The position numbers and the translations under genes were made by a program. From contig NZ_FTOG01000008.1 in the NCBI RefSeq assembly GCF_900156655.1, forward strand, positions 124,001-188,000: 64,000 bases of DNA. Reading direction: 5' to 3'. This DNA is from Rhodobacter aestuarii (GTDB lineage Bacteria; Pseudomonadota; Alphaproteobacteria; Rhodobacterales; Rhodobacteraceae). Below the pieces are notes generated by a model. It worked only from the letters and a program-made list of their open reading frames with translations. It was not told the origin of the DNA and did no database searches. Within the stretch, counting starts at the first letter, position 1, and every line of letters begins with the position of its first letter. Below are positions 18,619-57,569 of this stretch, piece by piece.

Positions 18619-21189
18619 TTAGAACAGGAAATCATCCACACTCAGCGCGCTGGCCGTCACATCGGCCAGCGTGATTTGAACGCTGTCGAAGCTGATCAGT
18701 GTATCCGTGCTGATTTGCGTGATGTGGCTCGCGATATCGGACCAGCTGCCGATGTCGCGCAGACCCGTCAGGTTCAAAAGGTCTTCGCCGATGGTGAAAT
18801 CGGTGATCGTGTCGGCGCCGTCGCCATCGGCAAAGATGAACGTATCCGCATCGCCGCCGCCGGTTAGCAGGTCATCGCCCGCGCCGCCCATGATCTGGTC
18901 ATTGCCCCAATCGCCAAGGATCGTGTCTTGCCCGGCATCCCCAGACAGATAATCGTCGCCGATGCTGGCTTGAATACGATCATTGCCGTCGCCGCCATAG
19001 ACGATATCGGAATCGCGGCGATCCAAGCTGCGGGCGATATAGACATCGTCGCCTCCATTGAGCATCACGAGATCGCTGCCGCCTGTGTCAATCACGCGGT
19101 CTACCCCGTCGCCGCCCACAAGCGTGTCATCGCCTTGGCCGCCGCGCAGCATTGAGCCATCATTTGAGGCGGTCAGGTAGTCGTTGCCATTTCCGCCCGA
19201 CAGCGTGTCAATGCCACCGTGGCTGGTCAGGATTTCGTCGCCCGCCCCACCACGCACAAGATCGGCGCCGCTGTCATAGGTATCGATGAACGTGTCATTG
19301 CCGCGGCCAAGATCAATACGATCATCGCCTGCGCCGCCGGTCACGGTGTCATCGCCCGCACCGGAAAAGATCGTGTCATTGCCATCATCGCCAAAGATCA
19401 GATCATTGCCGATGTCGGTGGTGATCCGGTCGTTGCCCGCGCCGCCATAAACGCTGTCCCCCGCGCCAAGGCTGTCCCCCGTGCCGGTGTAGCGGTCATC
19501 GCCTGCGCCAAGGTCAACGTAATCTTCGCCGCCCGCGTCGGTGACAAGGTCATCTCCCGCAGCGCCAAGCATCGTGTCATTGCCAAGGCCACCATCCAGC
19601 GCTGCGCCGCCCGATCCTGCCGTCAGATTGTCATCGCCATCGCCGCCCGACAGGCTGTCAAAGCCGCCCGCGCTGCTGATCGTGTCATTGCCATCGCCGC
19701 CCAGCACCGTGTCGTTGCTATCATCGCTGGTGTCGAAGAAGATATCGTCTCCCGCGCCGAGATCCACGAAATCGGCCCCTTTGCCCGCGGTCACCCGGTC
19801 ATTGCCAAGGCCCGCGGCAATCGTGTCATCGCCATCGCCCGCGTCAATCGTATCATTGCCGGCGCCACTGTCGATCGTGTCATTGCCCGCACCGCCCGCA
19901 AGGCTGTCATTGCCCGTCGTTCCGAAAAGCTGCATCGGCGCGAGAGGGGTATCTTCACCCGGCCCGGTGACGAACAGGAAATGCGCCGCGATCAGTCCAG
20001 CAATCGTGTTGCCGGCCAAAATCAGCGTGCCCGCTGCCGTGGCAATCGTGACCCCGTTCACGCTCTCTGACATCAGCGCAAGCAGGCTCGACCAATCGGT
20101 GAGCGAGGCAATCGCGGACACGTCGATATAATCCGTATCCCCAAAATCGGTGATCGTGTCGGAGCCAAAGCCACTGGTAAAGACGAAGGTATCCGCCCCG
20201 TCGCCCCCGGTGAGCGTGTCATTGCCGGCCCCGCCTGTCAGCGTATCATTGCCGCTGCCACCATCAATCACGTCATTGCCCGCACCGGACGAGATCTCAT
20301 TCGCGACCGTGTTGCCGGTGATTGTGTCATTGCCGCTGCCGGTGTGCAGGTTCTCAATCACCGTGCCTGTGGCAATGATCATGTTGCCCGTGCGCCCGAA
20401 GACGTTGGAGATTGCGCCTGCGGTGAGGTCGATGCGGCTGGCTTCACTGCGGTCCGAGAAATCCACCAGATCCGTGCCCGAACTGTCGGTGAGCGTGAAG
20501 GTGACGGAGCTTGAATGGTTCGCAACGCCCAGATAATCAAGCCCCCCCCCTGCGGTCGACCCCACGCCATAGACGGTGTTTCCACCATGGGCGGCAACTG
20601 GCGCACCATAGAGGCTTTGCATCGCAACGATGTCATATTGCATCGGCGTCAGCGTATAGGCGTAGGAGGCGTTGATATAGCTGTTCTGCGTTTGTGAGAA
20701 ATAGGACATGATCGTCCCTTGCCAGCTGTCATTGGCAAAGAGCGCGTTGCTCGAATAGCTGGCCGAGCCGTTGTAATTGCCCGCATGGCCAAGGCCAAGC
20801 GCATGGCCGATTTCATGCACATAGGTCTGGAACCCATATCCGCCGGGGGTATCGCCGTAGCGGCTGACCCAATCGGTGGAGATGCTGACCGTGGCAGAGG
20901 TCATCTTCCCTGCGTAGTTCCACCAAAAATTCGTATAGGCGCCCGAGCTGCTGTGTTGGAAGGTGATCTGCCCGCCAGAGCTTTTTTCAATGAAGTGGAT
21001 GTTGGCGGTATTGCTCCACTCTTCAAATGCCTTCGCGATCATCGCGCGTTCATTCGCCGTCATATCCGACGCGACAGAATAGGTCACAGTGCGTGTGCTG
21101 GTGAGCGCCCATGGATGCGACACGCCCCCCCAATAGCCATGGGTCAGCTGCCATGCTGCTTGTTCGGGGGTATAGACGGGCAAAGCCAT
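18619..21189 (-). CDS. Serralysin-like RTX metalloprotease (M10)
   Basis: An extracellular zinc protease of 856 aa. The N-terminal catalytic domain (1-200) has the zinc motif HEIGHALGLGH at 125-135 and the Met-turn IMSYF at 160-164. From about residue 300 to 820 follow many calcium-binding RTX nonapeptides (GGxGxDxxx variants such as GGAGNDTL, GGDGADTF), interrupted by non-canonical stretches around 380-430. The protein ends in hydrophobic DDFLF, a type I secretion signal pattern, and it lacks a Sec signal peptide. AAGGAG precedes ATG 21189; a TTG 30 bases further upstream is less likely. No type I secretion genes are adjacent, so an unlinked exporter must serve it. Confidence 0.9.
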   Translation of the reverse strand: MALPVYTPEQAAWQLTHGYWGGVSHPWALTSTRTVTYSVASDMTANERAMIAKAFEEWSNTANIHFIEKSSGGQITFQHSSSGAYTNFWWNYAGKMTSATVSISTDWVSRYGDTPGGYGFQTYVHEIGHALGLGHAGNYNGSASYSSNALFANDSWQGTIMSYFSQTQNSYINASYAYTLTPMQYDIVAMQSLYGAPVAAHGGNTVYGVGSTAGGGLDYLGVANHSSSVTFTLTDSSGTDLVDFSDRSEASRIDLTAGAISNVFGRTGNMIIATGTVIENLHTGSGNDTITGNTVANEISSGAGNDVIDGGSGNDTLTGGAGNDTLTGGDGADTFVFTSGFGSDTITDFGDTDYIDVSAIASLTDWSSLLALMSESVNGVTIATAAGTLILAGNTIAGLIAAHFLFVTGPGEDTPLAPMQLFGTTGNDSLAGGAGNDTIDSGAGNDTIDAGDGDDTIAAGLGNDRVTAGKGADFVDLGAGDDIFFDTSDDSNDTVLGGDGNDTISSAGGFDSLSGGDGDDNLTAGSGGAALDGGLGNDTMLGAAGDDLVTDAGGEDYVDLGAGDDRYTGTGDSLGAGDSVYGGAGNDRITTDIGNDLIFGDDGNDTIFSGAGDDTVTGGAGDDRIDLGRGNDTFIDTYDSGADLVRGGAGDEILTSHGGIDTLSGGNGNDYLTASNDGSMLRGGQGDDTLVGGDGVDRVIDTGGSDLVMLNGGDDVYIARSLDRRDSDIVYGGDGNDRIQASIGDDYLSGDAGQDTILGDWGNDQIMGGAGDDLLTGGGDADTFIFADGDGADTITDFTIGEDLLNLTGLRDIGSWSDIASHITQISTDTLISFDSVQITLADVTASALSVDDFLF

Positions 21190-21853
21190 GAAGCACTCCT
21201 TTGCGACGGGCGTGCGCAACCGGGCTTCGCGAAGCGGGCTTCGGGAAGCAGGGCCGACCTGCGCCGGCGGTTCGGTGGCGACACGGGAATATGAGGGTCC
21301 GAGTTCTTCGGAAGTTCGGGTCTCGATAGGTTTTATACTGCCTGAAATCTGTTTCCGCCAAGAGAATAGTCTACGCAGGAAGGGGGTATTAGAGGTTTGG
21401 GCCGCGGGTAAATAAAGACTGGGTAAATGCGTGATTAGGGGTCCAGTGCGTAATTGTGGCGAGGCAATTGAAATGGGGCGATTTGTGGGCGCCTAAAAGG
21501 AGGGAAAAGGGCAAGAAAATTTGGCATATGAGACTGAGTCGGAGCCGCGTGAGAGGTGGCCAGAATACCTTGCGGAATTGGTCCTGATCTACGACCCGCG
21601 ATGCTTGCGGGCAATTGATCAGTGTCTCTTATTATTTTGCATTTTAAAATGTGATCTGCGGTTATTTCCGCTTTTCATTCTGTTTTTTTATGCGCATCTC
21701 TGAAGATATTTTATTTGCGGCGTGAGGTCTTTTGAACTGATGCCTGCGCGCAAAAATGCCTGTGGCAGCATAAGTTTCGGTGCGCGGCACGCCCTTGCCG
21801 AGGGCTGCACTGGCTCGCTAGAGTGATCCATTGGCCTTGCCCCGGGGGGAACG
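21190..21853. other. 664-base gap between divergent protease and DUF2339 genes
   Basis: No gene could be supported. The stretch is clearly more AT-rich than its surroundings, especially 21600-21720. It contains a perfect 12-base palindrome GCTTCGCGAAGC (21224-21235) just upstream of the protease start, CATTTTAAAATG around 21640 and several T-runs. A 60-codon frame from a TTG at 21521 has AAGGAGGG too far upstream and no recognisable sequence. The region probably holds two divergent promoters and may be a remnant of transferred DNA. Confidence 0.5.
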
Positions 21854-40531: not shown

Positions 40532-40786
40532 TTAGTCTTGCGTGTTTTGCTGCGGGCCGCGCCGCACAAGATAGCGCAGCACAGCGCCCTCATCCGTCGC
40601 GCTTTCGAGCACATGGCCCGCATGGGTGCAAAAATGCGGCACGTCGATCCAACTGGCGCGGTCGGTCGCGATCATTTCCACCAGCACACCTTCGGGTTGG
40701 GCCAGCAACGCCTTGCGCAGGCGCAGCACCGGCAGAGGGCACAGAAGGCCGCGCAGATCAAGGGAAAGGGCAGGGGTGTCGCTCAT
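40532..40786 (-). CDS. TusA-family sulfurtransferase
   Basis: An 84-aa TusA/YeeD/SirA fold protein with the intact motif RGLLCPLPVLRLRKAL; C16 is the sulfane-sulfur acceptor. Role could be tRNA thiolation or Moco sulfur supply. It is monocistronic and divergent from ccdA. Confidence 0.9.
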   Translation of the reverse strand: MSDTPALSLDLRGLLCPLPVLRLRKALLAQPEGVLVEMIATDRASWIDVPHFCTHAGHVLESATDEGAVLRYLVRRGPQQNTQD

Positions 40787-44478: not shown

Positions 44479-46158
44479 TTAGCGCGGTTCCGCTTGCAGC
44501 CCGCGCAAGATTGCCCAGCACATCAACAGCAAGATCACCGTGAAGGGCAAACCGGTGGAGATCACCATCGCTTGCAATGCGCCTAGGCCGCCCCCGATCA
44601 ACAGCACAATCGCAACCGCGCCCTCAAACGTGGCCCAGAACACGCGCTGCGGCAGCGGTGCGTCGACCTTGCCACCCGCCGTGATCGTGTCGATCACCAG
44701 CGAGCCCGAGTCCGACGAGGTCACGAAGAACACGATCACCAGCACAATCGCGACAACCGAGGTGATGGAAGACAGCGGCAGCCCTTCGAGCATCGCAAAA
44801 AGCGACAAGGGCGGGTTGTAGCTGTCAATCACATTGGCTTTCACCGCCGAATTGACCGGGTCAGAAAGCACTTGGTCAATCGCCACACCGCCAAAGACGG
44901 CCATCCACAGCACGCAGACGATGGAGGGGATGATCAGCACACAAACCACGAATTCGCGCACCGTGCGGCCCCGCGAAACGCGCGCGATGAACATGCCCAC
45001 GAACGGCGACCAGCTGATCCACCACGCCCAATAGAAGGCCGTCCAGCCTTGGCGATAGCTATCATCCTCGCGCCCGATCGGGTTCGACAGCGGAATGATA
45101 TCTTTCACATAGGCCACCAGACCCTCGCCGAAATCGGTCAAGATCAGCATCGTCGGGCCCGCAATCAGCACGAACAGCAGCAAAAGCGCTGCAATCCCCA
45201 TGTTGATTTCGGAAAGCACCTTCACACCGCCATCAAGCCCGCGCAGCACCGAATAAAGCGCAACGCCGGTGATCACGGTGATCAGCGCGACCTGAACCGG
45301 AATGCCCATCGGCACGCCAAAGACGTGGTTGAGCCCGGCATTGGCTTGTTGAGCGCCGAAGCCAAGCGAGGTGGACAGGCCAAAGAGCGTGGCAAAAACC
45401 GCGATAATGTCGATCAGATGCCCGGTCCAACCCCAGACCCGCTCACCAAAAATCGGGTAGAAGGCGGAGCGGATCGTCAGCGGCAGGCCCTTGTTGAAAG
45501 AAAAGAGCGCAAGCGCCAGCCCCACCACCGCATAGATCGCCCAAGGGTGCAGGCCCCAGTGATAGATCGTTGCGGCCAAGCCCATTGCTTTGGCGGCTTC
45601 GACATTTTCGGGGATGATGTTGCCCGCCGCGTCAAAGGGCGAGGGCGTGCCCAAAGGTGCCGAGATGGCCATGTGATAGACCGGCTCCAGCACGCCAAAG
45701 AACATCAGTCCAATGCCCATGCCCGCCGCAAACAGCATCGCAAACCAGCTTTTGTAGCTGAAATCGGGGGTGGCGTCTCTGCCGCCAAGCCGGACCGCGC
45801 CCCAAGGGCTGACGATCAAGAGCAGACAAAAGAGCACAAAGACGTTGGCCGCCGACAGGAAGAACCAATCGAAGCTTGAGGTGAGGGCCGGACGCAGCCA
45901 GCCAAAGATGCTGGCGGCTTGTTCCGGCAGGGCCAGCGCGTAAAACACGAAGGCTACGACCGAGAGCGCGGAAATCGCAAAAACCGGGTTATGAATGTCA
46001 AACCCGATCGGACCCCATTGGCCCTCGATATTGTGCTGACCAATTTCGTAATCGGTGTCGATCAGTTCTGTTGCGCCTTCGGGGGCGGGAATCCCGGTCA
46101 CCGGATCTGGTTCACCATCGGGAATGGCAGTCCCTGCACTGTCTTCGGGTTCGGCCAT
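44479..46158 (-). CDS. BCCT-family betaine/choline-type transporter
   Basis: A 559-aa secondary transporter with 12 helices that imports quaternary ammonium or sulfonium osmolytes. After an acidic N-terminal tail of about 50 residues come the glycine motif GMGIGLMFFGVLEP (about 143-156) and the Trp-rich box YWAWWISWSPFVGMFIARVSRG near 375-396, which lines the substrate cage and includes the BCCT signature. GMGIG rather than GMGMG suggests sodium rather than proton coupling may vary. Substrates could be glycine betaine, choline or DMSP. It lies 57 bases after uspA on the same strand. Confidence 0.92.
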   Translation of the reverse strand: MAEPEDSAGTAIPDGEPDPVTGIPAPEGATELIDTDYEIGQHNIEGQWGPIGFDIHNPVFAISALSVVAFVFYALALPEQAASIFGWLRPALTSSFDWFFLSAANVFVLFCLLLIVSPWGAVRLGGRDATPDFSYKSWFAMLFAAGMGIGLMFFGVLEPVYHMAISAPLGTPSPFDAAGNIIPENVEAAKAMGLAATIYHWGLHPWAIYAVVGLALALFSFNKGLPLTIRSAFYPIFGERVWGWTGHLIDIIAVFATLFGLSTSLGFGAQQANAGLNHVFGVPMGIPVQVALITVITGVALYSVLRGLDGGVKVLSEINMGIAALLLLFVLIAGPTMLILTDFGEGLVAYVKDIIPLSNPIGREDDSYRQGWTAFYWAWWISWSPFVGMFIARVSRGRTVREFVVCVLIIPSIVCVLWMAVFGGVAIDQVLSDPVNSAVKANVIDSYNPPLSLFAMLEGLPLSSITSVVAIVLVIVFFVTSSDSGSLVIDTITAGGKVDAPLPQRVFWATFEGAVAIVLLIGGGLGALQAMVISTGLPFTVILLLMCWAILRGLQAEPR

Positions 46159-52202: not shown

Positions 52203-53636
52203 CTAGCCAAAATGCAGGCTTTTCACCTCTTGATAGTCCTCAAGCCCCTGCATCCCGCCTTCGCGCCCATTGCCAGAGGCTTTGTAACCGCCAAAGGGTG
52301 TGCCCCAGCCAAGGCCACCGCCATTGATATGCACCGCCCCTGCGCGCAGCCGCCGCGCCACCCGTTCGGCCCGCATCGGGTCTCCGGTTTGGATATAGGC
52401 TGCAAGGCCATAGTCGGTGGCATTTGCGAGCGCGATCATTTCGGCTTCGTCTTCGGCAGGCAGGATCGATAGCACCGGGCCAAAGATTTCTTGGCGCGCG
52501 ATGGTCATTTCGGGGGTGACATCGGCAAAGACGGTCGGGCGCGCATACCAGCCGTGCTCCAACCCTTCGGGCTTGCCAAGCCCACCCGCCAAAAGCCGGG
52601 CGCCTTCATCAATCCCTTTGGCAATGAGCGCCTGCACCCGGTCCCATTGTAGCTGATCAAACAGCGGGCCAAGGTGATCGCCCTCTTGCTTTGGGTCGGA
52701 GACCTTGGTGGCTTTGGCAGCGGCTTCGGCGATTTCAAGCACCTCGTCATAACAGGCGCGCTCGACAATCAGCCGGGTTGGGGCGTCGCATGATTGCCCG
52801 GTGTTGAGGAAGCACTCCGCCACTGCATAGCGCACGCGTTCTGCCAGCGCCGCGCCGCAATCGGCAAAGACAAGATTGGGGTTTTTACCGCCGAGTTCGA
52901 GCGTGACCCGTTTGACGGTTTCTGCCGCCGCTTTGGACACCGCAATTCCCGCACGCGTTGAGCCGGTGAAAGAGACCATCGCCAGCCCCGGATGGGTCGA
53001 AAGCGCCTCTCCTACCTCTGGCCCGGTGCCGTGAATGAGCGCAAAGGCCCCCGCTGGCACGCCCGCCTCATGTAGAATTTCGGCGTAAAGCTGCGCCGAA
53101 AGCGGCGTGTGTTCCGATGGTTTGAGAATGACCGGGCAGCCGGTGGCGAGCGCGGGCAGCACCTTGAGCGCGATCTGGTTGATCGGCCAATTCCAAGGCG
53201 TGATCGCGCCCACCGGGCCAATCGGCTCACGGGTCAGCGTGTCGCCATTTGGCAAAGTCCAGCGCTCGTCTTGTTTGGCGAGCGCTTCGATGAAGCCATC
53301 GGCATGGCCAATACCAGCTTCGGCTTGCATTGCGCGCGCCATCGAAATCGGGGCGCCCATCTCATGGCTCATCGCCCAAGCCAAATCCTCTTGCCGCGCG
53401 GCGGTGCCCAAGCGGATGCGGCGCAACAGCGCCAATCGTTCGGCTTTGGGCCAGAGGCCAAATTCCTCAAAGGCGCGGGTCGCGGCGTCTACGGCGCGAT
53501 CCACATCTGCGGCGGTGCCCAAAGCGACCGTGCCAATTTTGGCGTTTTGCGCGGGGTCCATGATTGGCATGGAACCGCCTCCCAAAGGCTCAACCCATGC
53601 GCCATCAATATAAAAACGCTCCGCGTTCATCGTCAT
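52203..53636 (-). CDS. Aldehyde dehydrogenase, predicted DMSP-aldehyde oxidation
   Basis: A 477-aa NAD(P)-dependent aldehyde dehydrogenase. Catalytic residues are present: N149 (PWNWP), E247 (TLELGGKNP) and C283 (NTGQSCDAP). It is the last gene of a five-gene operon whose other enzymes predict S-methylmethionine decarboxylation and transamination, so the natural substrate is proposed to be 3-dimethylsulfoniopropionaldehyde, giving DMSP. By sequence alone it could act on betaine aldehyde or other omega-amino aldehydes. Fifteen bases separate it from the methyltransferase gene. Confidence 0.9.
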   Translation of the reverse strand: MTMNAERFYIDGAWVEPLGGGSMPIMDPAQNAKIGTVALGTAADVDRAVDAATRAFEEFGLWPKAERLALLRRIRLGTAARQEDLAWAMSHEMGAPISMARAMQAEAGIGHADGFIEALAKQDERWTLPNGDTLTREPIGPVGAITPWNWPINQIALKVLPALATGCPVILKPSEHTPLSAQLYAEILHEAGVPAGAFALIHGTGPEVGEALSTHPGLAMVSFTGSTRAGIAVSKAAAETVKRVTLELGGKNPNLVFADCGAALAERVRYAVAECFLNTGQSCDAPTRLIVERACYDEVLEIAEAAAKATKVSDPKQEGDHLGPLFDQLQWDRVQALIAKGIDEGARLLAGGLGKPEGLEHGWYARPTVFADVTPEMTIARQEIFGPVLSILPAEDEAEMIALANATDYGLAAYIQTGDPMRAERVARRLRAGAVHINGGGLGWGTPFGGYKASGNGREGGMQGLEDYQEVKSLHFG

Positions 53637-53651
53637 GAGTAGGTTCCTCGC

Positions 53652-54569
53652 TCAAACAGGCGTGCCGCGGATCGTGCAGACCTCATGATAGATCGCCGCT
53701 TGTGGATCTGCATCCATCATCGCTTGTGCCGCCCGCGCGGTGAGCGGTTCGGCTCCCGCCGCATCGCGGTAAAAAGCGCAATTGAAAGCCTCATCAAAGC
53801 CGGTGCCGCCAAGCGCCTTTTCCAGCGCCACAAAGAAGGAAATGTCGGTCCCGGCATGTTGCTCGACGATCTGGGATTGCAGCTTTTCGGGGCGGTAGCC
53901 GTTGGCTTCAAACATATCGCACAAGACGGGCACGCCAACACGGGCCCCGAAATTCAAGATCACCTCGGCCCTTGGCGCACAGGCACGCAAGCGGCGCAAC
54001 AGAGCCTCGTTCAAGCCCAGCCCAACGGTATTGAAGGGAAATTCCTCAAAATCAGCCCAAGGGTAGTAATGCGCGATATGGTCATCTTCGCGCACATCTG
54101 CCGCCACGCCCAATTTGGTGCGATGCGCGTTGCGGAACGCCTCAAACCGCGGATCGCCCGGGCAGGCCACTTGTGGCAGGCAGCCGATCACCACATCCGC
54201 CTGTTCCACCTCGGCCAGAGCCTCGGGTGTGTCGATTAGGCTCACAGCCCCATGCACGGGCTGAAACCGATGTGCCGCGCTTGGCGCAAGGGTCAGCACG
54301 TTATGGGCAGATAAATCGGCCATGCGCGGATCAAGATCACTGCCCGAAACGCGGGCCGCGCCGCAGATTGTCAGCAAGAAAGCGGCGTTCGCGCCCGTGC
54401 CGATCCCCACTTCATAGATGCGCTTGCCGTGCAGGTTCGCCCGTTCCAGCGCGCGTTGAAAGGTTTGTGTCCATGGGTCGCGCGGATCAAAAGCAAATTC
54501 AGGCGCATGCGCGGCGGTGGAAGTGTTTGCGTCGGAAAGCTGAGGTTCGGTCATGTGTGAATGGCTCAT
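53652..54569 (-). CDS. mmtN: Methionine S-methyltransferase, MmtN type
   Basis: A 305-aa SAM-dependent methyltransferase predicted to turn methionine into S-methylmethionine. Motif I is EVGIGTGA (53-60) with acidic SGSDLDP (76-81). From memory of the plant methionine S-methyltransferase N-terminal domain, several stretches match in order: VIGCLPQ (128-133; plant IVGCIPQ), VGLGL (182-186), VILNFGARVG (203-212; plant MIFNMGGRPG), the pattern CDMFEANGYR (217-226), TDISFFVALEK (241-251; plant TDISALVEIEK) and AEPLTARAA (273-281). A generic methyltransferase would not share these. ATG 54569 follows GGAAG. Neighbours supply decarboxylase, transaminase and dehydrogenase, the remaining steps to DMSP. 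Confidence 0.82.
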   Translation of the reverse strand: MSHSHMTEPQLSDANTSTAAHAPEFAFDPRDPWTQTFQRALERANLHGKRIYEVGIGTGANAAFLLTICGAARVSGSDLDPRMADLSAHNVLTLAPSAAHRFQPVHGAVSLIDTPEALAEVEQADVVIGCLPQVACPGDPRFEAFRNAHRTKLGVAADVREDDHIAHYYPWADFEEFPFNTVGLGLNEALLRRLRACAPRAEVILNFGARVGVPVLCDMFEANGYRPEKLQSQIVEQHAGTDISFFVALEKALGGTGFDEAFNCAFYRDAAGAEPLTARAAQAMMDADPQAAIYHEVCTIRGTPV

Positions 54570-54620
54570 CTGTCTTCCGTCATAAGGGTCCAAAGTGCCG
54601 CCCAAGCGGCGGGGCGGCTC

Positions 54621-55862
54621 TTAGTCGAGCAGCATGAGATTGCGCGCCGCGCCGCGCAGGCAGTGGTCAGAGCGCATCGCGGCGGCATAGCCCCCCGCAT
54701 TCAGGAGCGCGATCACATCACCCTCTTCGGGCGGTGGCATCGGGTGATCTTCGGCCCATTTGTCGAGCGCTTCATTGACATTGCCGACCACGGTAAAACG
54801 GCTCGGCGGCGCCTCGCGCGGCACGGTTGGGACTGGTTCACAGGGCAGGTCGTAAAAGGCAGGCTCCATCGCCAAGTTGAACCCGGCATCAAGGCCCAAA
54901 AACTCCACCGTCTTGCGCCGTTCGCGGTAGGTGACGGATGCCAAAAGCACGCCCGCATCCTTGACCAGAAAATCTCCCGGTTCGACGGCAACCGTCAGCC
55001 CCGTGCCACCATAGGCTTGCGCGATGGTATGTGCCCAATGATCAAGGTCGAGCGGCCTGTCAGAAGCGCGATGTGGCACCCCCAAGCCGCCGCCGATATT
55101 GACTTCACTCAGCCCCGGAAGCTGTTCGGTGAAGCGGCGGCTTTCTTGCAGCACGGCGGCAAATTGCGTCATCTCGCGATCTAGGTAGCCACAGCCCGCG
55201 TGGAAATGAAGCCGCGTGATCTTCAGCCGATGGCGCTTGGCGATCTCAATCGCCTCCGGCAACCGATCCAGATAGATGCCAAATTTCGTCGCTGCCGCCC
55301 CGCTATACTGCAGCATCTGACTGCCGCCATAGCCGATGCCGCGGTCTGGGTTGATCCGCAGCCCAACTTTGCGGCCCGGATGCGCGCGGCCAAAGCGGTC
55401 GAGCGCGGCAAGCGCATCAAAGTTGATGGCGATCCTTTCGAACCGCCCCAATATCTCAAGATCGGCAGCACTGAGCGAGGTGCCCGTAAACGAGATATCT
55501 TGCTCACGAAAGCCGCAAGAAAGCGCATGTATCAACTCTTCGGGGGAGCAGACATCGGCCCCGCACAGCCCTTGCCCCGCAAGGTAGGATAAAAGCTGGG
55601 GCGTGCGGTTGGCCTTGATCGCGTAATAAAGGTGATGGTCCAGCCCGACACGGTCCAAGGCGCGGTGCAAAAGCCCTGCCTTCTGCGCCACACGCCGCGC
55701 GCGGATCACATAAGTCGGCGTGCCGAGCTTGCGGGCCAAGGCCGCCAGATCGGTGCTGCCCAGATGCAGCCGTCCGCCCCGATAGGCCAAATCTTCGCGT
55801 TGCCACCAAGGGGCGACGGTCTTTTGTGCGCGGTTTTCCGGGGCGATGTCGGTGTCAGCCAT
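54621..55862 (-). CDS. Fold-III PLP decarboxylase, predicted S-methylmethionine decarboxylase
   Basis: A 413-aa member of the ornithine/DAP/arginine decarboxylase family 2. The PLP lysine is K83 (YYAIKANRTP), with HAG at 221-223 and the phosphate loop NIGGGLG at 255-261. Two usually conserved positions differ: EPG is followed by D297 where most family members have Arg, and the active-site cysteine near the C-terminus is replaced (GNVNEALD, 360-367). This argues against DAP or ornithine as substrate; decarboxylation of S-methylmethionine to dimethylsulfoniopropylamine is predicted from context. Its start overlaps the TusA-like gene by 8 bases; ATG 55862 was chosen for this coupling. Confidence 0.85.
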   Translation of the reverse strand: MADTDIAPENRAQKTVAPWWQREDLAYRGGRLHLGSTDLAALARKLGTPTYVIRARRVAQKAGLLHRALDRVGLDHHLYYAIKANRTPQLLSYLAGQGLCGADVCSPEELIHALSCGFREQDISFTGTSLSAADLEILGRFERIAINFDALAALDRFGRAHPGRKVGLRINPDRGIGYGGSQMLQYSGAAATKFGIYLDRLPEAIEIAKRHRLKITRLHFHAGCGYLDREMTQFAAVLQESRRFTEQLPGLSEVNIGGGLGVPHRASDRPLDLDHWAHTIAQAYGGTGLTVAVEPGDFLVKDAGVLLASVTYRERRKTVEFLGLDAGFNLAMEPAFYDLPCEPVPTVPREAPPSRFTVVGNVNEALDKWAEDHPMPPPEEGDVIALLNAGGYAAAMRSDHCLRGAARNLMLLD

Positions 55863-56109
55863 GTCGGAGCATTCCTTTGCCGGCTTTCGCCAATGCGCGA
55901 CGGTCTTGGGTGGAGTAGACAAGCCGGATATCGGTCGGGTCATGCTTCAGGCTGTGCGCGATACGCTCGGGCGCGTTGCAGTGACGGTCGACCAAAACGT
56001 CAAGCGGCAGGCCACAATCTTGGCGCCCGACCACGGCTTGTTTGATGCGCAACACCGTCAGCGGTGCCGAAAGCCCGCGGCAATCAATGAAGCTTGTTGG
56101 TTGGCTCAT
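55855..56109 (-). CDS. TusA-like protein lacking the CPxP cysteine
   Basis: An 84-aa TusA-fold protein. The motif region reads IDCRGLSAPLTVLRIKQAV: the acceptor cysteine of RGLxCPxP is Ala15, while C10 lies just before, and C32 and C44 occur elsewhere. A classical persulfide relay through the CPxP cysteine is therefore not possible. It is encoded between the aminotransferase (41-base gap) and the decarboxylase (8-base overlap), so it should be made in step with them. It may act as a structural partner or regulator of the pathway enzymes; this is unproven. Confidence 0.82.
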   Translation of the reverse strand: MSQPTSFIDCRGLSAPLTVLRIKQAVVGRQDCGLPLDVLVDRHCNAPERIAHSLKHDPTDIRLVYSTQDRRALAKAGKGMLRHG

Positions 56110-56150
56110 ATCTTGTCTCCTTCGCACCGAGGGGGGTGTGGCTTTGGGGC

Positions 56151-57569
56151 TCAGATCTTGCCCGCTTTTTGATCGGCTTCGGCGCGGTCAAGCGCCTCCG
56201 ACAGGATCGCAACAATCCGGTCGATATCGCTGCGCGTGATAATCAGCGGCGGGGAGAGGATGCAGAGGTTTTCATAAGGCCGCACCAGCAGCCCCGCCTC
56301 TTGGCAATAGCTGTCCACCCGCTGCGCAAGCGCCATATTGGCGGCCGTTGGCCCCACCTCTTCGCCCGTCCAGCATTCGACACAGGCCATCAGATGGTCG
56401 CCGCGCACCGTATAGACGATGTCTTTGCCGCGCAGCGCGCGCAGCTTGTCGATGAAATAGGGGCCAACATCGCGGACATGGCCGCAAATATTCTCGCGCT
56501 CCATGATCTCGATATTGGCAAGCGCAACCGCGCAGGCGACCGGGTGGCCCGAATAGGTGAACCCGTTTGAAAAAACAGGCTTATCGGCGGGTGCGTTGCG
56601 CGCAAGCGCTGTGGCAATGCGGTCCGAGATCAACACCGCGCCCAGCGGTTGATAGCCCGAGGAAAGCCCCTTGGCGGTGATGATCATATCGGGCGCGAGG
56701 CCAAAGCGGACGTCAGAAGCAAAGAAATACCCTAGCCGGCCAAAGCCCGTCACCACCTCATCCGAGATGTAGAGGATGCCGTATTTGTGGCACAGATCGC
56801 AGGTGGCTTTTTGATAGCCCTCCGGCGGGGTCAGCACGCCGCCAGACGCCATGATTGGTTCGGCAATGAAACAGGCGATGTTTTCGGGGCCGATGCGCGC
56901 AATCTCGGCCTCCATCTCAGACAGCAATTCTTGCAGTTTGGCTTCGGCCGAGATGTTGGAGCGGTCCGGGTCATATCCGGGGCTGGAAAGATGGTGCACG
57001 AACTCGGCCTCATAATGAAACAAGGTCCGATCCGCCGATTTGCCCGAAAGCGATTGCGTCAGATAGGTGCCGCCATGATAGGCATTGATCCGCGAGAGCA
57101 CATGGCGCCGTTGCGGCTGGCCTTGCGCAGCAAAATGATACTGCGCGATGCGGATGGCCGATTCCACTGCGGTCGAGCCGCAGGTGGTGAAATGCACCCG
57201 GTTCAAATCCCCCGGCGAAAGCTTGGCGAGCTTTTCTGCCAAACGCGCAGCAGGCTCGCTCGAAACATCGCCAAAGGGGGTGTAATAGGCCATCTGGCGG
57301 GCTTGATCGGCCATTGCCTCGGCCAATTCTTCGCGGCCATAGCCCAAGGTCATGCACCACATACCGCCAATCGCATCGAGGTAGCTTTTGCCCGCGCTGT
57401 CGCGCACCCGCACGCCCTTGGCGGAGTGGATCACCAATGCGTCTTGCGTGCCTAAACTGCTGAGATCTGCCCAAGGGTGCAGCACGTGACGCGCATCAAT
57501 CCTTGGGACAGGACGGGACTGGAGCTTTTGCGTGGTCTTATCTGGGGCGGTTTCAGCCAACAAATCCAT
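56151..57569 (-). CDS. Class III aminotransferase, predicted DMSP-amine transaminase
   Basis: A 472-aa omega-aminotransferase (fold type I, class III). PLP lysine K300 lies in IITAKGLSSGYQPLGA, the aspartate D270 in YISDEVVTGFGR, and GSTAVESAIRIA at 131-142 contacts the cofactor phosphate. Family members move terminal amino groups, for example beta-alanine, taurine or putrescine to pyruvate. In this operon the proposed substrate is dimethylsulfoniopropylamine. It is the first gene, with AGGAGG about 10 bases before ATG 57569. Upstream in-frame residues are not conserved in character. Confidence 0.9.
   Translation of the reverse strand: MDLLAETAPDKTTQKLQSRPVPRIDARHVLHPWADLSSLGTQDALVIHSAKGVRVRDSAGKSYLDAIGGMWCMTLGYGREELAEAMADQARQMAYYTPFGDVSSEPAARLAEKLAKLSPGDLNRVHFTTCGSTAVESAIRIAQYHFAAQGQPQRRHVLSRINAYHGGTYLTQSLSGKSADRTLFHYEAEFVHHLSSPGYDPDRSNISAEAKLQELLSEMEAEIARIGPENIACFIAEPIMASGGVLTPPEGYQKATCDLCHKYGILYISDEVVTGFGRLGYFFASDVRFGLAPDMIITAKGLSSGYQPLGAVLISDRIATALARNAPADKPVFSNGFTYSGHPVACAVALANIEIMERENICGHVRDVGPYFIDKLRALRGKDIVYTVRGDHLMACVECWTGEEVGPTAANMALAQRVDSYCQEAGLLVRPYENLCILSPPLIITRSDIDRIVAILSEALDRAEADQKAGKI

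Follow-up and report, generated by a model that had tools for sequence, protein, structure and literature searches.

Results

Organization of the operon and its genomic context

The window, i.e. the whole stretch of 64,000 nucleotides of Rhodobacter aestuarii DNA that was analysed, carries one operon of five genes on its minus strand, all of which were present in the ORF check. In the direction of reading, these genes encode a class III aminotransferase (positions 56151..57569), a TusA-like protein of 84 aa in which the CPxP cysteine is replaced (55855..56109), a fold-III PLP decarboxylase (54621..55862), the methionine S-methyltransferase MmtN with 305 aa (53652..54569), and an aldehyde dehydrogenase (52203..53636). 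The tight spacing that had been noted at the outset, with gaps of 41, -8, 51 and 15 bases, matches the computed gene ends exactly. The order aminotransferase, TusA-like gene, decarboxylase, mmtN was seen again in related genomes, and comparison of the window with the related locus L006 revealed purifying selection on all five genes; therefore, the operon is not a chance arrangement.

Pfam assignments are firm for the aldehyde dehydrogenase (Aldedh, E = 4.6e-147), the aminotransferase (Aminotran_3, E = 8.2e-82) and the decarboxylase (Orn_Arg_deC_N, E = 5.2e-32). The aminotransferase also scored 661 bits with the NCBIfam model PRK07036, which is above the cut-off of 618. The decarboxylase stayed below the LysA threshold, reaching 206.9 bits with the lysA model TIGR01048 as compared to a cut-off of 297.9. 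There is one other relative of the decarboxylase in the genome, which is LysA-like and obtained 156 bits with the decarboxylase profile (A4) versus 783 bits for the operon copy.

The original prediction had placed the operon in a nitrogen-fixing and probably phototrophic bacterium. As far as gene content is concerned both traits are upheld, the former by NifU and NifZ within the window and the latter by two Photo_RC genes in the genome. The mmtN-type gene set is patchily distributed, occurring in 2 of 18 genomes of the genus and in 1 of 295 of the family, the window's own genome counted in each case. The class-wide searches scored the best few candidates per genome, and absence in them is no proof.

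The methyltransferase belongs to Group I MmtN

A search of PDB sequences matched the methyltransferase to entry 7vvv, the MmtN of Roseovarius indicus (E = 3.2e-126), and the window protein is 67.6% identical over 284 aa to this crystallised enzyme. Membership of Group I calls for more than 50% identity with enzymes of the group that have been characterised, a value that the window protein exceeds. In the tree it groups with R. indicus MmtN (fork support 84/90), which is to be read with the composition of this tree in mind: it contains MmtN rows only, neither plant MMT nor an outgroup, and is by itself no test of whether the protein clusters away from MmtN and plant MMT. The motifs IGCLPQ, VGLGL and TDISFFVALEK, on which a relationship to the methyltransferase domain of plant methionine S-methyltransferase had originally been proposed, are all present in the translation. 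Pfam yielded sub-threshold generic matches alone: the four matches (E up to 0.1) are to methyltransferase-domain and PrmA models and none is to a SET domain, nor did the 305-aa protein match the C-terminal aminotransferase domain of plant-type MMT (Group III). Thus, the identification as MmtN has been substantiated, whereas the pairing of MmtN with BurB in the same prediction holds by function but not by sequence, as BurB is, according to passages of PMC12542666, a SET-domain enzyme of 172 aa without significant BLASTP similarity to MmtN.

Most binding residues of Group I MmtN are kept as well. G55, G57 and G59 of the GxGxG motif are invariant in the MmtN alignment, and the SAM residues D78, S110, L111 and C130 (D69, S101, L102 and C121 in R. 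indicus), the Met residue R141 (R132) and the trimer-pocket residues P178 and R192 (P169 and R183) are all retained. The residue roles are those given for the R. indicus enzyme (PMC9135737). D259 stands in place of E250, an allowed exchange, since some MmtN have Asp at the places of Glu127 and Glu250. Position 136, corresponding to Glu127, departs from the Group I clusters, being Cys in the window and L006 only among 17 aligned sequences; this exchange is absent from the substitutions named in PMC9135737 and counts against the predicted route to DMSP. Glu127 of R. indicus MmtN touches both SAM and Met, and the E127A variant kept more than 50% of activity, while the KM for Met rose ~8- to 13-fold in this and two other variants (PMC9135737). 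By its sequence the window enzyme is a member of Group I MmtN, and it is predicted to S-methylate Met.

A TusA-like protein without the sulfur-carrier cysteine

The most unusual part of the operon is the gene of the TusA-like protein, to which no role had been given originally. In size and in its N-terminal half the protein resembles the sulfur carrier TusA (PF01206). However, it stayed below the Pfam gathering score for this family (19.0 bits as compared to a cut-off of 28.6), and 7 of 18 relatives matched PF01206 at E values up to 1. When aligned by hhalign with 10 TusA-family proteins, the family gave a value of 86% over residues 1–42, its C-terminal half lying outside the alignment; these matches suggest a TusA fold. 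The CPxP sulfur-carrier cysteine is invariant in the 10 TusA-family proteins compared (A5), whereas none of the 22 aligned members of the TusA-like family has Cys at this position. A search of PDB sequences with the family profile returned a single MutS2 chain (E = 0.89), and the PHROGs search yielded nothing. Core pN/pS of the gene is 0.25 in the comparison of the window with L006.

The TusA-like gene accompanies mmtN in both cluster types

We compared 25 mmtN loci (the window, L006–L025, L028, L029, L033 and L034), which are not independent, as ten are from Thalassospira, and none of which comes from R. indicus, Novosphingobium sp. BW1 or Streptomyces mobaraensis itself. The loci span at most ~6–14 kb on either side of mmtN, L025 ending ~360 bases past the gene. 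Ten loci, referred to as type A, are defined by having aminotransferase and decarboxylase genes together with mmtN, and the remaining 15 are type B; the aminotransferase occurs in none of the latter. The TusA-like gene was detected by tblastn or profile and other genes by direct searches of the loci. The TusA-like gene lies at mmtN in all 25 cases, and mmtN and the TusA-like gene are the only ones among nine genes tested that are common to both types. In L029 the gene scored weakly (31.7 bits), and a tblastn search of plasmids with the window protein did not pick it up.

A search of 15 genomes, of which 14 are distinct, gave in each one strong match to the TusA-like protein (87–117 bits), followed by scores of 16 bits or less. 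Within the Thalassospiraceae, mmtN lies within 1.5 kb of the TusA-like gene in 12/12 matches; the other 17 of the 29 genomes are without the TusA-like gene, and the mmtN search covered the genomes that have it. In all three actinobacterial loci (L023, L033, L034) the TusA-like domain is fused N-terminally to the decarboxylase, in frames of 486–501 aa, thus to an enzyme other than MmtN, which counts against a companion dedicated to MmtN. Two loci with a related decarboxylase and without mmtN in the stretch covered (L039, L040) have no TusA-like gene, the best score being 3.6 bits; in L040, a SET methyltransferase gene overlaps the decarboxylase gene. Since the TusA-like gene is found beside mmtN in 25/25 loci, fused to the decarboxylase in actinobacteria and absent from the two decarboxylase loci without mmtN nearby, the family tracks MmtN.

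These observations also bear on the question of whether the protein instead serves the SMM decarboxylase as a subunit or regulatory domain. The actinobacterial fusions speak for such an arrangement, as does the 8-base overlap of the TusA-like gene with the decarboxylase start in the window, L028 and L029. However, no such decarboxylase is present in the stretches examined of the 15 type B loci, all of which nonetheless have the TusA-like gene, and the eight type B genomes searched contain relatives at the level of LysA only (up to ~155 bits). Together with the absence of the TusA-like gene from both decarboxylase loci without mmtN, this renders an assignment to the decarboxylase unlikely.

In type B loci, the TusA-like gene and the ATG of the nearest mmtN are separated by 133–292 bases (12 of 15 loci measured). 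RNA structure z-scores for this gap range from 0.1 to -3.4 (eight loci), with no shared element visible by eye. At Rfam gathering score, neither a SAM riboswitch nor another known RNA was detected before mmtN in the window, and the scan of seven loci gave four tRNA matches and nothing else.

Discussion

The original prediction was that the operon makes DMSP, a major marine sulfur compound and precursor of dimethyl sulfide, or a related sulfonium compound, and we consider it likely that a route from methionine to DMSP is indeed encoded. MmtN would use SAM to methylate Met, and from the S-methylmethionine (SMM) thus formed the PLP decarboxylase would make DMSP-amine, a role suggested by its position beside mmtN, the class III aminotransferase would yield DMSP-aldehyde, and the aldehyde dehydrogenase would oxidize the latter to DMSP. 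Group I MmtN clusters for DMSP are known from R. indicus, Novosphingobium sp. BW1 and S. mobaraensis (Peng et al. 2022, PMC9135737), and the downstream enzyme set fits the S. mobaraensis type, as far as the published descriptions go. The same chain of reactions is described for the bur cluster (BurB, BurI, BurD, BurE) of Burkholderia thailandensis in passages of PMC12542666.

The operon could also end at SMM, DMSP-amine or another sulfonium compound, or DMSP could be no more than a step on the way to a larger metabolite. The aldehyde dehydrogenase is a variable member of mmtN loci, which we counted against the DMSP route: at high identity it occurs in 3/10 type A loci, namely in the window and beside mmtN in L006 (85%) and L028 (83%, in pieces). 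Moreover, Rhizobium lusitanum p_4 has the same gene set continuing into AMP-binding and polyketide synthase genes, and such an outcome is predicted for NRPS-linked mmtN (PMC9135737). However, all four steps are encoded in the window, the operon is flanked by GGDEF/EAL genes and small genes without firm family, and no NRPS or PKS gene was recognised by eye in the ORF list, family scans having covered a minority of the window's genes; a product other than DMSP thus appears rather improbable.

As to the companion, a partner at the Met/SMM step is the most likely role. The TusA-like protein, probably no longer a persulfide carrier, may have become a dedicated companion of MmtN, which would either bind the enzyme or take SMM from it and pass it to the next enzyme; that it acts on or with MmtN has about even chances. 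As a more specific and tentative proposal, which we rate somewhat lower, the TusA fold may have been recruited after loss of the carrier cysteine as an obligate MmtN partner that docks on the enzyme and holds SMM or passes it on, depending on lineage, to the decarboxylase (where fused) or to a transaminase. Catalysis does not depend on the companion, because purified MmtN works alone in vitro. We considered whether the high, millimolar KM of MmtN reflects the lack of an activator, an idea we rejected as the KM values of BurB are equally high (1.8 mM for SAM, 16.6 mM for Met). It is improbable that the protein controls the pathway as a redox or metal sensor via Cys10 and Cys44, for although Cys10 is present in 22/22 and Cys44 in 21/22 aligned members, and both in L020, L021 and L024 outside this alignment, Cys44 is missing from L029 and no further domain was seen in the protein.

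We found no mention of this companion in the running text of the literature searched, and 'TusA' has no occurrence in the main text of PMC9135737, from whose account the window locus differs in that the TusA-like gene is recognised; grey (unassigned) arrows in the figures of that paper may already draw it.

Taken together, the full predicted methylation route to DMSP is now placed in a genus in which phototrophy and nif genes occur, traits that set this host apart from those of the published Group I clusters. The DMSP gene set itself is of a known kind, and the companion is its more interesting piece. Its constancy suggests a conserved part of the pathway beyond the four enzymes. The gene is small, with no second copy in the genomes searched, and MmtN pathways in metagenomes could be traced with it as a second marker. 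If the proposed partnership is true, all Group I MmtN pathways would have in the TusA-like protein a component that has gone unrecognised.

Identity of the operon genes

Re-reading of the window bore out exactly the five genes of the minus-strand operon (52203..57569), together with the order, strand and gaps claimed for them in the original prediction. Pfam firmly placed the aldehyde dehydrogenase, the class III aminotransferase and the fold-III decarboxylase (54621..55862), which fails the NCBIfam LysA model (206.9 bits, cut-off 297.9), and yielded only sub-cut-off matches for the methyltransferase (53652..54569) and the TusA-like protein. The methyltransferase matched no NCBIfam model at its cut-off. 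A PDB sequence search with this enzyme returned a single real match, 7vvv (also 7vvw and 7vvx; E 3.2e-126), these being the Roseovarius indicus MmtN entries of Peng et al. 2022 (PMC9135737); a second match at E 0.78 was dismissed as chance. The window enzyme is 67.6% identical to R. indicus MmtN over 284 residues and, in R. indicus numbering, retains the SAM residues and the equivalents of Arg132, Pro169 and Arg183 in the alignment, with Asp at the place of Glu250. Glu127, which touches SAM and Met in the R. indicus enzyme (PMC9135737), is replaced by Cys (residue 136 of window MmtN), and among 17 aligned proteins this is seen only in the window and in L006, the locus of Rhodobacter sp. TJ_12. 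In a 26-row tree comprising MmtN proteins exclusively and no outgroup, the window enzyme groups with those of Rhodobacter sp. TJ_12, Rhodovulum sp. P5 and Mangrovicoccus (support 100/99); this group joins R. indicus, Pseudoruegeria (L007) and Acidimangrovimonas (L008) at 84/90, with no resolved branching order within this larger group. The methyltransferase is thus almost certainly MmtN. The original prediction had paired MmtN with BurB for this step, and by sequence that pairing does not hold, as BurB belongs to the SET enzymes and a BLASTP comparison with MmtN revealed no significant similarity (PMC12542666).

About 6 kb from the operon, the window encodes a BCCT-family (betaine/choline/carnitine) transporter (44479-46158, minus strand), possibly an osmolyte importer. 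An 866-aa protein (18619-21219, minus strand) combines RTX repeats with the C-terminal domain of serralysin-type peptidases.

Two types of mmtN loci and their distribution

The 25 mmtN loci compared are the window, 20 loci from genome contigs (L006-L025), two plasmid loci (L028, Rhodovulum sp. P5; L029, Rhizobium lusitanum) and two from the family of Actinacidiphila (L033, L034). Two mmtN neighbourhoods are named by Peng et al. 2022 (PMC9135737). Ten of the 25 loci, which we call type A (window, L006, L007, L008, L023, L025, L028, L029, L033, L034), carry a class III aminotransferase and the decarboxylase alongside mmtN. Only three of the 25 loci have the aldehyde dehydrogenase at high identity, namely the window, L006 and L028; the L025 stretch ends too early for a verdict. 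In the remaining 15 (type B; L009-L022, L024), mmtN is always accompanied by genes for a class I/II aminotransferase and for a 2-hydroxyacid dehydrogenase; a class II aldolase-like gene is present in 14 of the 15, and a TetR gene likewise in 14. At E 1e-8, all four of these genes went undetected in the type A stretches, as did the class III aminotransferase and the decarboxylase in those of type B. The type B gene set would fit transamination of S-methylmethionine (SMM) to the oxo acid followed by reduction, a route that, read in this way, would join the methylation and transamination pathways.

Within the window's genus, mmtN was found in 2/18 genomes including the window's own, which is also the only one to yield it among 295 genomes of the family sample and among 385 of the class sample, in the latter with the best few candidates per genome scored. 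Around Actinacidiphila, 3/297 genomes of the family sample carry mmtN, that genome included, and the decarboxylase profile at E 1e-90 matches in the same three. The distribution is patchy and the gene resides on plasmids in Rhodovulum and Rhizobium; horizontal spread by transfer is therefore likely. Two genes of the Rhodovulum plasmid (L028 8001-10430), mmtN and the aldehyde dehydrogenase, and one of the Rhizobium plasmid (L029 10967-12375), the aminotransferase, each match in two pieces; damage to these copies or errors in their sequencing may be the reason.

A TusA-like protein accompanies mmtN

The 84-aa TusA-like companion (55855..56109, minus strand) scores under the Pfam TusA cut-off, and 7 of 18 family members match that model at E up to 1. 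When the family profile was set against one of 10 TusA-family proteins encoded in these genomes, hhalign gave 86%, covering the N-terminal half only. The CPxP cysteine is missing in all 22 aligned companions, while Cys10 is present in 22/22 and Cys44 in 21/22; the three members not in the alignment carry both. A canonical TusA gene with CPxP lies elsewhere in the window (40532-40786, minus strand; 60.1 bits) and shares 36% with the companion over 39 residues. Comparison of the window with L006 gives companion residues 1-69 a pN/pS of 0.25, a sign of purifying selection, next to 0.13-0.22 for the four enzymes; its last 15 codons are less constrained (0.63).

Using tblastn with the 84-aa protein, a match was obtained upstream of mmtN on the same strand in 20/20 contig loci (E 6e-34 to 0.003). 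A profile built from 18 members, which excludes the four following loci, detected it at L028 (103.4 bits), L029 (31.7), L033 (78.5) and L034 (77.5), such that the family is present at 25/25 mmtN loci, window counted. All 15 mmtN genomes searched (14 different, as that of L006 was entered twice) contain one strong copy (87-117 bits), the rest scoring at most 16 bits. In Thalassospiraceae, 12/29 genomes have the companion, always with mmtN within 1.5 kb (12/12), most of these genomes being already counted among the 25 loci; in the class sample, with the best few candidates per genome scored, it was found in 1/385, the window's own. No account of the companion beside mmtN was found in open-licence literature, figures and supplements aside.

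In type A loci the companion is located before the decarboxylase or within its frame, forming the N-terminus of a 486-501-aa frame in L023, L033 and L034; this actinobacterial fusion ties it closely to the decarboxylase. In type B loci it precedes mmtN itself and is retained without the decarboxylase in 15/15 cases; all eight type B genomes searched hold only LysA-level relatives (at most ~155 bits), versus >770 bits with the same profile for the true decarboxylases of three type A genomes. A plasmid search with the decarboxylase at E 1e-40 returned four records, including two loci lacking mmtN within 8 kb. In Eleftheria terrae, the decarboxylase sits inside a thioester-reductase and AMP-ligase cluster; on the Sphingomonas paeninsulae plasmid (L040 7480-9218), the overlapping neighbour of an SMM-decarboxylase-like gene encodes a SET methyltransferase, which makes this a BurB-like pair in a genus other than Burkholderia. 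By profile, the TusA-like family is absent from both the Sphingomonas and Eleftheria loci (best 3.6 and 3.3 bits). Its presence in type B without the decarboxylase and its absence at 2/2 mmtN-less decarboxylase loci argue that the family tracks MmtN. On the simplest reading, the companion is predicted to act at the Met/SMM step; that it acts on or with MmtN has, in our estimate, an even chance.

A gap of ~130-290 bases separates the TusA-like gene from mmtN in L009, L010, L012-L015, L019 and L022. Hairpins predicted there exceed shuffled sequences in strength at some loci (z -3.4 in L015, -2.7 in L019) but not at others (0.1 in L013); Rfam gave no match to the gap in the loci scanned.

Taken together, DMSP is the probable product of the operon, and the original reading to this effect is well supported as a prediction. 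The operon represents a further case of a known pathway, and the companion is the part worth laboratory effort.
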